Below are positions 26,706 to 31,720 of a stretch of 64,000 nt of DNA, one piece after another. The DNA comes from Bacteriovorax sp. BAL6_X. Lineage in GTDB: Bacteria > Bdellovibrionota > Bacteriovoracia > Bacteriovoracales > Bacteriovoracaceae. The position numbers and the translations under genes are program-made. Positions within the stretch are counted from its first letter, which is position 1. The number at the start of each line of letters is the position of its first letter. Under the pieces are notes generated by a model, which did not search any database, had not been told where the DNA came from, and saw only the letters and a program-made list of their open reading frames with translations. The stretch lies in NCBI RefSeq assembly GCF_000443995.1, contig NZ_AUMC01000010.1, positions 930,001 through 994,000 on the forward strand. Direction: 5' to 3'.

Positions 26706-27044
26706 TTACGACTCTAGAGTATGCCCTTGCATATTAACCTTTGCTCCTGGAGCAATATTAATATTCTTAGCAACAATTTGACCTTTAACTGTTCCTGTAG
26801 GGAAGACCTTTACCTTTCCCTGTGCGGTAATATCACCACAAACAACGCCATAGATATTTAGGTCTCCACAGCGAATTCGTCCTTTTACATTACCTTGAGG
26901 CTCAATTGTCAGTTGATGTTTCTCATCGATTTGAATATCACCTTCGATCGTTGAACAAATATGTGAAGGCCCTGCTAGAACGATATCACCTTTTATAACC
27001 GAGCCAATACCGACAAAAGTAAAATTTTGATCTCTTAAATCCAT
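26706..27044 (-). CDS. Bactofilin
   Basis: This 112-residue polymer-forming cytoskeletal protein is built of short beta-helix turns (GSVIKGDIVLAG, GDIQIDE, GDLNIYGVVCGDITAQG, GTVKGQIVAKNI), each about 17-20 residues. Bactofilins assemble without nucleotide and scaffold peptidoglycan enzymes; CcmA of Helicobacter controls cell curvature. AAGGGC precedes ATG. It follows the membrane protein and YkuD gene on the same strand, 9 bp apart, so it is co-transcribed with them. Confidence 0.9.
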   Translation of the reverse strand: MDLRDQNFTFVGIGSVIKGDIVLAGPSHICSTIEGDIQIDEKHQLTIEPQGNVKGRIRCGDLNIYGVVCGDITAQGKVKVFPTGTVKGQIVAKNINIAPGAKVNMQGHTLES

Positions 27045-27053
27045 AATATGCCC

Positions 27054-27791
27054 TTATTTAATCTCTTCTCTGAAAAGTTGTTGATGAACAATATCACCAA
27101 GGCGGTTAAAGATTAGAATTTTAAACATTACAGTTTTATTCTTAGGCATATCGAACTTCGCTGTTACAGGACGAAAGCGTGATGTCGCAAATGATTCACC
27201 TTTTGTGTAGTTAAGAGAGAAGTTTCTAATTGAGTCTCCACCTTCTGGATAGTGAAAGTAGTTATTTCCATCAAATAAGAAGATATGAATATAGCCGGAA
27301 ACCTTATTATTATCTTTAGTTATATTGATAATATTGAAGTTTAGTTCTGCCTTATCATCCTTTTTAGTAACCTTAAGATCTTCAATATTAATACTTGAAG
27401 GACTAGTTAGATCTTTTTGACCTTTTACAGGAGCAATAATATTAAGTGAACTTGCACTCACTGCACTAATTGTTTCATTTGCAAGACGGTTTGTTAAATC
27501 AAGGTTAAGAGTTGTTAGTTCAGTATTCTTCTGGGCCAGAGTAGAGTTCTCATCTCTTAGGTTTTTTATAATAAGAGGTTCTTTGGCCTTAATAAGCTTT
27601 TCGATATTCTTCGTATAGAAATATGACCCAGCTAGGGCAAAGATGGAAAAGACTGTTAGCACAACTGGTACATAAAGAATTGCTTTATACTCACGTGGAG
27701 AAAGCTGTAAGTACCTTGGCACTTTATTATTTTCATAAAGAATAAAAGACAAATTATTTTTTGCCTTCGAATTACTTGATGGTGTGGACAT
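27054..27791 (-). CDS. Single-pass membrane protein linked to bactofilin, unknown
   Basis: This 245-residue protein has a cytoplasmic N-terminus (about 35 residues), one membrane helix (YVPVVLTVFSIFALAGSYF, near residue 40-60), a short coiled coil (residues 65-105) and a periplasmic beta domain. It lies between the YkuD enzyme and bactofilin genes in one operon. By analogy with Csd5/Csd7 of Helicobacter, it may link the cytoplasmic bactofilin to the periplasmic peptidoglycan enzyme. This is inferred from topology and position; I see no sequence similarity to those proteins. Confidence 0.7.
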   Translation of the reverse strand: MSTPSSNSKAKNNLSFILYENNKVPRYLQLSPREYKAILYVPVVLTVFSIFALAGSYFYTKNIEKLIKAKEPLIIKNLRDENSTLAQKNTELTTLNLDLTNRLANETISAVSASSLNIIAPVKGQKDLTSPSSINIEDLKVTKKDDKAELNFNIINITKDNNKVSGYIHIFLFDGNNYFHYPEGGDSIRNFSLNYTKGESFATSRFRPVTAKFDMPKNKTVMFKILIFNRLGDIVHQQLFREEIK

Positions 27792-27802
27792 CCCGTTCCC
27801 TT

Positions 27803-28864
27803 TTAATTTTCGCTATATGGTCTCGTTAAAGTGAGATTCAATGTGAAAATTTGTTTTGGGTCTTGCGAAGTAAAGAACCTTTGTGATGGTTCAAAACTTA
27901 AGTGCTCCCTCTCGTTTGTAATATCCATTGGAATACGCTGCCATCGCTCTGCTACAATCTTCCACTTGTAGTAAGCGTCACGTTTTAAATAGAGTGTTTT
28001 CTTTCCAATATCGTTAATTGTATTACTAGTGTAATCTTGCTTAAACGTTACGACAACATAGTCATCAGCTTTTAAGACGGTAAGATTCTTAAGTTGAATT
28101 GATGGTGTGCCAGGGTTTGCAAATACGGCCCTTTTGTATTGTGCAAAAGAGTTATAGTTCCCACGGCTTGGATCAACAAATTCTGTACGTGAATAGAAGC
28201 TTAGGTAGTCTTTAATATTCTCCGTTGACCAAGCTGTTAGCCAACCGTTAACTGTATCTAATATTTCATTTTTTTCTTTTAACCATGTTTCTTTGTTGAA
28301 AAATTTCAGGTTGTGAACAACAACAATATTAGTCTTATTAATTTCAATAAACTTTGAAATATCAATTAAGTTGATATTGTGAGCAACTAGACATCCTTTT
28401 GAATCAAGACCTTTGTCAATTCTTGGTTCGTTGTCTGTTGAGTGAAGCCAGATTCCGCCACCTGTTTTTCCTTGGGCCTTATCAATTGGGTTAGGGTAGT
28501 TAAGAACAAATGCTCCAACCCCGTATTGCGCACCAAGTTCTCCATGTCTCTTGATGAGGTCTTTGTGCTCAATAAATTGATTGAAATGATAAACACCTTC
28601 TGGTGTTCTACGATCACCTTGGTAAGACTTATTTCCAACCTTTTGACCTGTGGCCATCTGATAAGTTTTAATTAATCGTGGTAGGCCATTGTTATTTTCA
28701 TATAGATAGAGTGTATGAGTTGATTTCTCTGCAACGATCACATGGTGTGCGAAGTAATCATTTAATAAAAGCAGATTTGATGGATAGAATTCCTGAGCGA
28801 CACTACTCATAGAAAAAATAGTCGATGTAATAATAGTCGATAAAAATAATAGTTTTTTAATCAT
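27803..28864 (-). CDS. YkuD-NTF2 peptidoglycan enzyme (LD-carboxypeptidase or transpeptidase)
   Basis: This 353-residue protein has a signal peptide ending SSVAQ. Residues about 40-185 are a YkuD domain with His141 and the nucleophile motif SKGC (Cys158). Residues about 195-310 are NTF2-like (WLTAWSTENIKDYLSFYS, ending YYKWKIVAERW). This YkuD+NTF2 layout is that of Csd6/Pgp2 of Helicobacter/Campylobacter and Bd1075 of Bdellovibrio, LD-carboxypeptidases that trim tetrapeptides and bend the cell. Catalysis of 3-3 cross-links (transpeptidation) remains possible. It is first in the operon with the membrane protein and bactofilin. Confidence 0.82.
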   Translation of the reverse strand: MIKKLLFLSTIITSTIFSMSSVAQEFYPSNLLLLNDYFAHHVIVAEKSTHTLYLYENNNGLPRLIKTYQMATGQKVGNKSYQGDRRTPEGVYHFNQFIEHKDLIKRHGELGAQYGVGAFVLNYPNPIDKAQGKTGGGIWLHSTDNEPRIDKGLDSKGCLVAHNINLIDISKFIEINKTNIVVVHNLKFFNKETWLKEKNEILDTVNGWLTAWSTENIKDYLSFYSRTEFVDPSRGNYNSFAQYKRAVFANPGTPSIQLKNLTVLKADDYVVVTFKQDYTSNTINDIGKKTLYLKRDAYYKWKIVAERWQRIPMDITNEREHLSFEPSQRFFTSQDPKQIFTLNLTLTRPYSEN

Positions 28865-29090
28865 GAAAAGCCTTTATATTTGATAACTACCTAATATTGT
28901 AGAACATTTTTTTACCACTACTCAAGTATTTATCCCCTAAAAAGCAAAATAACTTTCGATAAAATATCTTTACTAGTCGTAAATACTTAACTTTTTTCAA
29001 AAAAAGGCGAAAAGCAGAGGGTAAGGATTTAAGAATAGGCCATATTTAAATAAATTTCATACGTTTTGCATGGCCGCGATGGGGAAAAAT

Positions 29091-30749
29091 ATGTCAGCAG
29101 AAAAGAAGCAACAAGAAGATTTACTTGCTGAAAGTGAGAAAATTCAAAATGCAGTTGATGAAGTTCTTGGAAGCGATACTGAGACAATTAGTGACGCACA
29201 GGAGAAAACTTCCTTAACGCTCGTTGACACAAATATTGACTTTTCTCAACTAAATAATGAAGCTAGCTCTCCACTAGACGAAGGAATCGAGCTTAACTTT
29301 GATGATGTAAGTGCCATTGATCTTTGTGCTGAAGGGGATATTGTTGAGAATGCTCCAGCAAATTCAGATTCTCCAAACGATCTAGATATGGACTTTTCAT
29401 CAAGCATTAAGATTAATTTAACTCAAGAAGGCGATACTATTCCTAATGCATCAATTGATGCTGCTCGTGAGGATGATCTCGACCTGGATAATAATCCCAT
29501 TATTGTTGAAGATAAAGTTGCGGATACACCAGAGGCCCAAGTAGAAGAAGTTGAAGAACTTGAAGAAGATATCTCTGAAGATGACATTGAGATGAGCCTA
29601 GGCGAAATGGACAATGCAGACGATTTGAATGACTTGGATAATCTGGATGATGAACTCAGTGAAATTGAAATGTCACTAGGTGATGATCTTGATGATGAAC
29701 TCGATGATGACCTTGGAGACTTGAGCGACCTAGATAGTCTAGGGGAGCTTGATGATTTAGGAGACTTCGAGGATGTTGATGCAGACTTAGATTCAGACCT
29801 TGATATGTCTTTTGATACATTTGAGCAAGATGACATCACAGACGAAGTTGAAAGTCTTATGGTGCAAGACTCAATTGAAGCTGAAGATACAATGGCACAG
29901 CTTGATGGTATGGTTGAGGCAAACCAAGAACACCACGAGATACCTTCTGTCTCATCAGAAGAAACACTAACAGTGACAGCTGTATCGCCAACAGATGAAA
30001 CTTCTAATTTTGATATGAATGGCCATGGAGCAGTTGAGACTCCTGTAGCAGAAGCTCCACAAGACTTTGCTTCATCTGAACATGGGACTTCTCGAACTTA
30101 TGCCAGTGCAAATATTAATTTTCATCCTGGGCACATTTTAAGCTCACTGAGTGAAGACCAGCTTCTAGATCTGAGAGTTACTGTAACTGAATTGAAGGAA
30201 GATCGAATCAATCTACTATCTGAGTTAAACGAACTTAAGGCCATGATTGAAATTTTAAAAAGAGAATCACTTAACTTAAGAACAGAAGTTGATGAAAAAA
30301 ATATTGAGCTATCAATAGCCAAAAAACGTCATGCTATCGAATTTGAAGAGACTAAGTCGATGCTTGACAAGTATAAGCATGGCCTAGAATTAAGTGAGGC
30401 GAAAAATAAGGCCATGAAAGAAGAGATGGCGGAGATTGGCACGCGCCTAAAGATTGATCATACAAGTATTAGAGCACGTGAACAGGAGTTGGAAAGTCAA
30501 TTAGAGCTAATGGCCATTGACAGTGATAACAAGATTAAAGCAAGAGATGAAAAGATCTTGGAGCTTAAGCGTAAAATAGATACTCTTGAGTTTAATATGG
30601 AAAATACTACAATCAACGAGAGACAAGCGAAGAAAGAGAGAATGCTAGCGCAGCAAAAACTTGAACGTCTTATAACAAACTTAAGGGGATCTTTGAATGT
30701 GGTTGCTGATACATTAGAATTAGATGATGAATTAGGATTGGATGATTAA
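29091..30749 (+). CDS. Asp-rich coiled-coil protein
   Basis: This protein is about 552 residues, soluble, no signal. Residues about 170-250 are extremely acidic with DDLDDELDDDLGDLSDLD-like runs; residues about 350-540 form a long coiled coil; it ends in LDDELGLDD. I start at ATG 29091 because GGGGAA is five bases upstream; ATGs at 29070 and 29079 lack a site. It is followed by a diguanylate cyclase 8 bp later and a phosphoesterase, so it likely belongs to a c-di-GMP unit. Function unknown; a polar scaffold or filament-like protein is plausible. The complementary strand's long Ser-rich frame is an artefact of the GAT/GAC-rich codons. Confidence 0.75.
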   Translation: MSAEKKQQEDLLAESEKIQNAVDEVLGSDTETISDAQEKTSLTLVDTNIDFSQLNNEASSPLDEGIELNFDDVSAIDLCAEGDIVENAPANSDSPNDLDMDFSSSIKINLTQEGDTIPNASIDAAREDDLDLDNNPIIVEDKVADTPEAQVEEVEELEEDISEDDIEMSLGEMDNADDLNDLDNLDDELSEIEMSLGDDLDDELDDDLGDLSDLDSLGELDDLGDFEDVDADLDSDLDMSFDTFEQDDITDEVESLMVQDSIEAEDTMAQLDGMVEANQEHHEIPSVSSEETLTVTAVSPTDETSNFDMNGHGAVETPVAEAPQDFASSEHGTSRTYASANINFHPGHILSSLSEDQLLDLRVTVTELKEDRINLLSELNELKAMIEILKRESLNLRTEVDEKNIELSIAKKRHAIEFEETKSMLDKYKHGLELSEAKNKAMKEEMAEIGTRLKIDHTSIRAREQELESQLELMAIDSDNKIKARDEKILELKRKIDTLEFNMENTTINERQAKKERMLAQQKLERLITNLRGSLNVVADTLELDDELGLDD

Positions 30750-30757
30750 TAATTAAT

Positions 30758-31720
30758 ATGCTGGAAAAACAATATAAAGCACTTTTAGATTTTATCTGTC
30801 AAAATGTTGAAGAGCATAACTTCAATATCATTTTGAAGTCCTTTCGTGATTTTATTAGGACAGAGTTTGATTCAAAAACGCCACTTGTTTTTGCAACACT
30901 TGATAATGATTCGGCAAATCCCATCATTCGAGATTTCTATAATAATAAAGTTATTGAAGAGTACCCAAGTAAGGTCTATCAAGAACTTATGGGGGCCTTA
31001 AAGACGCAGAAGCTGCACGTTGATATCGAAGGTGATAAGTACCGCTTCGTGGAAGTCGGCTTTAATGGTAGCCAAAGCTTATACCTAGTTCTTAATGGAG
31101 AGTATTCAACAGAAATCTTTAATCAAATAGAAAATTATATTCAATCGAAATTTAGAAGCCTTTTACGAGTCAAAGAACTACAACGTCTTCAGGCCTTAGC
31201 ACATGTTGATGATGTCACAGGACTGTATAATCAAAGAAAGTTTAAAAGTGATATTGATGCTGCTATTAGAGAGTTTGAAGCATTAGAGCGCTCATTCTCT
31301 TTGATTTTCATTGATATTGATTATTTTAAAAGTATCAATGATGGCCATGGCCACTTAATTGGAACGAGTTTACTTCAGCAGGTTGCTGAAACTATTCGTG
31401 CAACAGTTAGAGAAGATGATCTTTGTTATCGTTATGGGGGAGACGAATTTGTTGTTCTTGCCCCATATTCTTCTCTAAAAGACGCTAAGATGATTGGTCA
31501 ACGAATTCTTAACCGAGTTAAGTCGACTGTTTATAAGATCGAAGCTGATCTTGAAATCAATACTCATGAGGATGAAGACGTCCAACTGAGTGTCTCAATT
31601 GGTGTTGCCAATTACCCAACTAACGCTTCTGGACGTAATGAAATCATCGGAATGGCAGATAGAATGATGTATGAAGCAAAAAAGTCTGGACGTGGCAAAG
31701 TCTGTGTAGCAGACTCATAA
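30758..31720 (+). CDS. Diguanylate cyclase (GGDEF)
   Basis: This enzyme makes c-di-GMP from two GTP. The 320-residue protein has an N-terminal GAF/sensor-like region (residues 1-130), a short helix linker, and a GGDEF domain: DDVTGLYNQRKF, FIDIDYFKSINDGHGH, and RYGGDEF (Gly227-Phe231). The product-inhibition site RxxD (Arg218-Asp221) lies exactly five residues before GGDEF, so feedback inhibition is expected. It has no membrane segment. It follows the Asp-rich protein and overlaps nearly with the next gene (2-bp gap). Confidence 0.92.
   Translation: MLEKQYKALLDFICQNVEEHNFNIILKSFRDFIRTEFDSKTPLVFATLDNDSANPIIRDFYNNKVIEEYPSKVYQELMGALKTQKLHVDIEGDKYRFVEVGFNGSQSLYLVLNGEYSTEIFNQIENYIQSKFRSLLRVKELQRLQALAHVDDVTGLYNQRKFKSDIDAAIREFEALERSFSLIFIDIDYFKSINDGHGHLIGTSLLQQVAETIRATVREDDLCYRYGGDEFVVLAPYSSLKDAKMIGQRILNRVKSTVYKIEADLEINTHEDEDVQLSVSIGVANYPTNASGRNEIIGMADRMMYEAKKSGRGKVCVADS

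Follow-up and report, generated by a model that had tools for sequence, protein, structure and literature searches.

Organisation of the locus

Within the window, the 64,000-nucleotide stretch of Bacteriovorax sp. BAL6_X DNA analysed here, the open reading frame (ORF) list and Pfam comparison distinguish a set of three genes, all on the minus strand and in the order YkuD-NTF2 enzyme, middle protein and bactofilin (Table 1). The middle protein of this trio is named MID here. Bacteriovorax sp. BAL6_X is a relative of predatory bacteria. The initial annotation placed the enzyme, a membrane protein and the bactofilin 9-11 bp apart in one operon. Both the spacing and the common strand were confirmed, with the MID and bactofilin ORFs also sharing one reading frame, and the operon is borne out as a conserved unit by the adjacency of the same trio in 57/58 loci holding a MID gene in the family to which the strain belongs (f1), the 58th being interrupted by the end of a contig. 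As the same three genes occur in the same order in these loci, the trio is not a chance arrangement. Upstream of the enzyme gene, and divergent from it, an acidic coiled-coil protein (559 aa, no Pfam match) and then a GGDEF protein are encoded at positions 29070-31720, and relatives of these flanking genes remain beside the MID and bactofilin genes in many other families.

Table 1. Features of the enzyme-MID-bactofilin locus, in positions of the window
Feature	Position	Strand	Basis
YkuD-NTF2 enzyme, predicted periplasmic LD-carboxypeptidase, 353 aa	27803..28864	-	Pfam YkuD + Cds6_C
Enzyme, putative signal peptide, approximately residues 1-23 (MIKKLLFLSTIITSTIFSMSSVA)	28796..28864	-	Sequence composition
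Enzyme, YkuD catalytic domain, residues 41-181	28322..28744	-	Pfam
Enzyme, His141 codon, catalytic His, aligned with H141 of Bd1075	28442..28444	-	Alignment
Enzyme, Cys158 codon, catalytic Cys, aligned with C156 of Bd1075	28391..28393	-	Alignment
Enzyme, NTF2-like (Cds6_C) domain, residues 201-306	27947..28264	-	Pfam
Enzyme, Trp308 codon, aligned with Bd1075 targeting residue W303	27941..27943	-	Alignment
Enzyme/MID gap, 11 bp	27792..27802	-	ORF coordinates
MID, 245 aa, proposed bactofilin/LD-carboxypeptidase adaptor	27054..27791	-	Family alignment + AlphaFold model
MID, predicted cytosolic tail, residues 1-31, beta-hairpin 14-18/26-30	27699..27791	-	AlphaFold model
MID, predicted transmembrane and coiled-coil helix, residues 32-104	27480..27698	-	AlphaFold model
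MID, predicted periplasmic Ig-like beta-sandwich, about residues 119-243, ~125 residues	27063..27437	-	AlphaFold model + structure comparison
MID/bactofilin gap, 9 bp	27045..27053	-	ORF coordinates
Bactofilin, 112 aa	26706..27044	-	Pfam PF04519

The enzyme is related to Bd1075, Csd6 and Pgp2

The enzyme, whose gene is single-copy in the genome, matches the Pfam families YkuD (1.8e-14) and Cds6_C, the NTF2 domain of Csd6 (4.2e-21). Among proteins of solved structure, Bd1075 (7o21, 5.3e-36) is the nearest relative, with Pgp2 and Csd6 behind it, and the closest named match is encoded by Bacteriovorax sp. DB6_IX (62 % identical), followed by Halobacteriovorax and Bacteriovoracaceae records. The catalytic His141 and Cys158 are invariant in the alignment of 30 family members (30/30), and the position of Trp308 is occupied by Trp in 28/30 and by Phe in 2/30. 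The YkuD-NTF2 layout of these three enzymes, as initially annotated, is upheld by comparison. With a putative signal peptide, a YkuD domain followed by Cds6_C, the catalytic His and Cys, and an extended NTF2 end of the Bd1075 type carrying the equivalent of W303, the enzyme is, on sequence grounds, a member of the Bd1075/Csd6/Pgp2 kind. It is further predicted to act as an LD-carboxypeptidase, removing D-Ala from tetrapeptides. It differs from Bd1075 in its placement on another branch of the enzyme tree, where the f1 enzymes stand apart from most others of the phylum, with low deep supports. Bd1075 is monocistronic and is targeted to the convex face of the cell (PMC8938487), whereas the BAL6_X enzyme is encoded in an operon with MID and bactofilin. 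Since bd1075 is monocistronic and the Bdellovibrionaceae loci have no MID gene beside the enzyme, a linker would not be needed for every enzyme of this kind.

Predicted structure of MID

No Pfam or NCBIfam family was matched by MID, and 27 relatives likewise matched none in Pfam. The Pfam family DUF6776, a possible lead with a similar bitopic layout, was not among the families listed in the Pfam scan of these 28 MID proteins. The AlphaFold model (60 sequences; mean pLDDT 89.5, pTM 0.64) comprises a short N-terminal tail, one long helix and a C-terminal sandwich domain whose modelled beta-sandwich spans residues 134-243. The single-pass membrane protein that had been annotated accords with this model, where the helix starting at residue 32 is predicted to include the membrane segment. 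Lys and Arg residues are nearly evenly distributed on either side of the membrane helix (3.6 vs 3.2) and the positive-inside rule gives no orientation; the probable location of the N-terminus in the cytosol is drawn from LmdC and the fusion protein described below, rather than from charge. For the Ig-like domain, Foldseek ranks BsuPI, a proteinase inhibitor of Bacillus, first (3isy, E 1.6e-4), and the VIA best match for the sandwich has a Z of 10.4, with an rmsd of 2.3 over 96 residues. As many unrelated sandwich domains match equally well, the fold gives no function.

The hairpin, transmembrane and coiled-coil arrangement of MID resembles that of the LmdC-type M23 peptidases, with a similarity that is slight between single sequences but significant between profiles. 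Tail-to-tail HHalign comparison of MID and LmdC-type M23 peptidases gave a score of 16.1, which was reached by none of 200 column shuffles (mean 6.9, sd 1.6, maximum 13.0). Eight of the top ten matches of the M23-tail profile among 1036 distinct N-termini were MID proteins (hypergeometric 1.7e-8, with sequences treated as independent). Furthermore, in most of the genomes searched from family f6, which the enzyme tree places with named Bdellovibrionaceae, MID is lacking and the best match of the MID profile is the M23 peptidase, over the tail, transmembrane and coil regions only. The LmdC tail (residues 1-38) binds the bactofilin BacA directly, with a KD of about 15 uM (PMC10945521). MID shares with LmdC of Hyphomonas neptunium and Rhodospirillum rubrum the bitopic layout of cytosolic tail, transmembrane segment and coiled coil, and a gene beside that of a bactofilin. 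It differs in carrying an Ig-like domain in place of the M23 domain, with the enzyme encoded as a separate protein of another family, and on this basis is not classed as LmdC, the M23 domain being absent from its sequence. The possibility that MID is a degenerate M23 peptidase was rejected as regards its periplasmic half, for which the model gives an Ig-like sandwich and in which none of 28 members matched Pfam M23 at E up to 1; the likeness of the tail was retained. The genome's own LmdC-type M23 peptidase (L164:1480-2604) adjoins secA and not a bactofilin gene, yet retains the tail motif.

The bactofilin partner

The bactofilin matches PF04519 above the cut-off (1.1e-20). Its N-terminus, MDLRDQNF, has no membrane-targeting start of the MFSKKKK type, as is also the case for the aligned N-termini of its relatives in the family; such a start is common but not universal in bactofilins and is not needed for membership. 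The missing start fits an anchor provided from outside. In Caulobacter, PbpC is recruited by BacA via a cytosolic tail, and overproduced PbpC can replace the membrane-targeting start (PMC12448750). PbpC is similarly a bitopic client drawn to bactofilin by its tail, but is itself a wall synthase. A second bactofilin of the BAL6_X genome (L159:5484-7753) is encoded directly behind parA-parB and ahead of the ATP synthase genes, an order kept in four relatives.

Distribution and co-loss of MID, enzyme and bactofilin

MID was found in 35/58 related genomes by single-sequence search, and by profile search in 164/291 genomes of the phylum, the weakest of these matches, with E near 0.01, being doubtful. 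Many of the genome records are metagenome assemblies, and counts over related genomes are not independent. Within f1, MID is present in 90/97 genomes: 89 encode both MID and the enzyme domain, one (82 % complete) encodes MID only, none encodes the enzyme only and seven encode neither. This co-occurrence corresponds to a Fisher p of about 6e-10, worked by hand with genomes treated as independent, where at most four lineages of loss are represented. Four of the seven genomes without MID (G094, G120, G165 and G240), which belong to one genus (g54) and are up to 99 % complete, also have no bactofilin, while the other three retain a single bactofilin scoring like the parAB-linked paralogue.

In all 27 loci from the phylum's other families, the MID and bactofilin genes are adjacent or overlap, usually by a few bases. 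The enzyme is missing from the site in 26/27 of these; L072 in family f2 is the exception. Most of the genomes concerned encode the enzyme at another site. Commonly, these pairs have M16 peptidases to one side of them and, to the other, divergent genes for coiled-coil, GGDEF and phosphoesterase proteins. As the pair is constant in the other families, the enzyme is nearly absent from it there and the f1 enzymes stand apart in the tree, the MID-bactofilin pair looks to be older at the locus, with the enzyme having apparently joined it in the f1 lineage.

Outside the family, a scan with the enzyme profile recovered 11 loci where the gene of a Csd6-like enzyme has that of MID immediately downstream. 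They come from Desulfobacterota and other deltaproteobacteria, from Latescibacterota and KSB1, from Silvanigrella, which belongs to another class of the same phylum, and from other bacteria. Ten of these were detected with a profile built from Bdellovibrionota sequences only, and the eleventh (L242) with an enlarged profile. In all six loci checked, the pair is followed by an M99 peptidase of the Csd4/Pgp1 family (E 1e-30 to 1e-41), and for most of the pairs no bactofilin occurs within 5 kb. A scan of the BAL6_X genome for the Csd4 family (M99) yielded none, with the same scan also giving no match in control genomes. One Desulfobacterales locus (L239:4857-10184) encodes, one after another, a Csd6-like enzyme, MID, an M99 peptidase, an M23 peptidase and a bactofilin, and thereby holds an almost complete shape set of the Helicobacter type. 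In a deltaproteobacterium (L241:4386-8297), a bactofilin is followed by a fused protein of 542 aa, with YkuD-NTF2 at residues 95-356 and the MID Ig-like domain at residues 427-541, and then by an M99 peptidase. Gene fusion is classic evidence of joint function; this fusion rests on a single metagenome-assembled record. In the open-licence literature, no paper was found joining Csd6, Csd4, operon and Desulf-, nor one on Halobacteriovorax with bactofilin, and the only bactofilin-YkuD paper found concerns Caulobacter stalks.

A putative membrane-spanning shape module

The conservation of the trio, the joint loss of MID and enzyme, the LmdC-like tail, the fusion of the Ig-like domain to the enzyme and the pairing of MID with either partner elsewhere together suggest that MID is probably, if by no wide measure, an adaptor which holds the LD-carboxypeptidase to a bactofilin scaffold, making the operon a membrane-spanning shape module. 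Bactofilin would polymerise beneath the inner membrane, where MID would dock on the polymer by its cytosolic beta-hairpin tail and in doing so would anchor a bactofilin that has no membrane-targeting start of its own. The coiled coil and Ig-like domain would extend into the periplasm, there holding or positioning the secreted YkuD-NTF2 enzyme, which would trim tetrapeptides to tripeptides in one wall zone, with uneven wall growth and bending of the cell as the result. The contacts of MID with bactofilin and with the enzyme, its orientation, the enzymatic activity and the effect on curvature are inferred. The middle protein had initially been annotated as a possible undescribed linker; it is undescribed insofar as it belongs to no Pfam or NCBIfam family, while its role as a linker is supported by comparison, through its make-up, its gene partners and the one fusion.

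Published shape systems offer only an inexact parallel. The annotation had pointed to Helicobacter as a case in which a bactofilin and membrane proteins direct such enzymes. There, the bactofilin CcmA is tied to the M23 enzyme Csd1 via Csd7, while Csd6 reportedly interacts with none of CcmA, Csd5 and Csd7 (PMC9507126), and in Campylobacter Pgp2 is assigned to a different pathway from bactofilin 1104 (PMC10151779). It counts against an adaptor that the homologous enzyme works in both genera with no known bactofilin link, that Bd1075 is targeted to the convex face although its own gene adjoins none for MID, and that outside the family a bactofilin is missing near most of the MID-enzyme pairs, while nearly all MID-bactofilin pairs of other families have no enzyme beside them. 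Like MID, Csd5 and Csd7 of Helicobacter pylori are non-enzymatic single-pass proteins, connecting CcmA with the wall or with an enzyme acting on it. Csd7, compared with MID by description, serves Csd1, and neither protein is reported to bind Csd6. Csd5, also compared by description only, carries an SH3 domain; for MID no Pfam SH3 match was listed (28 members), and its periplasmic domain is modelled as the Ig-like sandwich. The simplest account is an adaptor between the LD-carboxypeptidase and a bactofilin, which would work like LmdC-BacA and Csd7-CcmA and is filed under neither.

The enzyme-less MID-bactofilin loci of other families would be expected if MID were a membrane anchor for bactofilin and nothing else; its Ig-like domain would then bind peptidoglycan or some other protein of the envelope, and the enzyme would merely be co-transcribed because both are required at one stage of growth. 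Csd5, which binds peptidoglycan with its SH3 domain and CcmA in the cytosol, is such an anchor (PMC9507126). In other phyla, however, MID pairs with the enzyme where no bactofilin is present, and this, with the L241 fusion, suggests a link to the enzyme itself; the anchor-only explanation is unlikely, if still the strongest of the alternatives. Non-enzymatic proteins such as EnvC or Csd2 regulate their partners, and MID could in the same way activate or inhibit the enzyme rather than position it. The match of its Ig-like domain to a proteinase inhibitor and the fusion of this domain to the enzyme agree with a regulator, but the fold is a common one matched equally by unrelated sandwiches, and regulation alone would not require a bactofilin partner; such a role is considered improbable. 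It is very improbable that, instead of curvature, the module has its role in remodelling the wall at the septum, in zones or at the predatory stage (e.g. growth inside prey). Bactofilin-client pairs do govern further zones of growth, among them the buds of Hyphomonas (PMC10945521), but Bd1075, the closest enzyme to have been characterised, gives cells their vibrioid shape (PMC8938487), and the M99 peptidase that accompanies the pair in other phyla is of the helical-shape carboxypeptidase family.

Implications for cell shape

More tentatively than the adaptor function at this locus, and with something less than an even chance, MID may represent a widespread, undescribed adaptor family, composed of the bactofilin-docking half of LmdC and an enzyme-holding Ig-like domain, and serving in several phyla to carry LD-carboxypeptidases of the Csd6 type on bactofilin scaffolds. 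According to the authors of the Bd1075 study, the targeting of a protein to one side wall had no known mechanistic basis (PMC8938487). An adaptor family would, if true, explain in physical terms how a soluble enzyme of the periplasm comes to be placed there. In two well-studied helical genera the LD-carboxypeptidase appears to be separate from the bactofilin, while MID seems to join both. Genus g54 represents a natural loss of MID, the Cds6_C enzyme and all detected bactofilins, which is relevant to cell shape. The MID-enzyme gene pair marks candidate shape operons in phyla that have so far had no genetics, and as the tail and periplasmic domain of MID can be tested, the bending of cells would become directly approachable.
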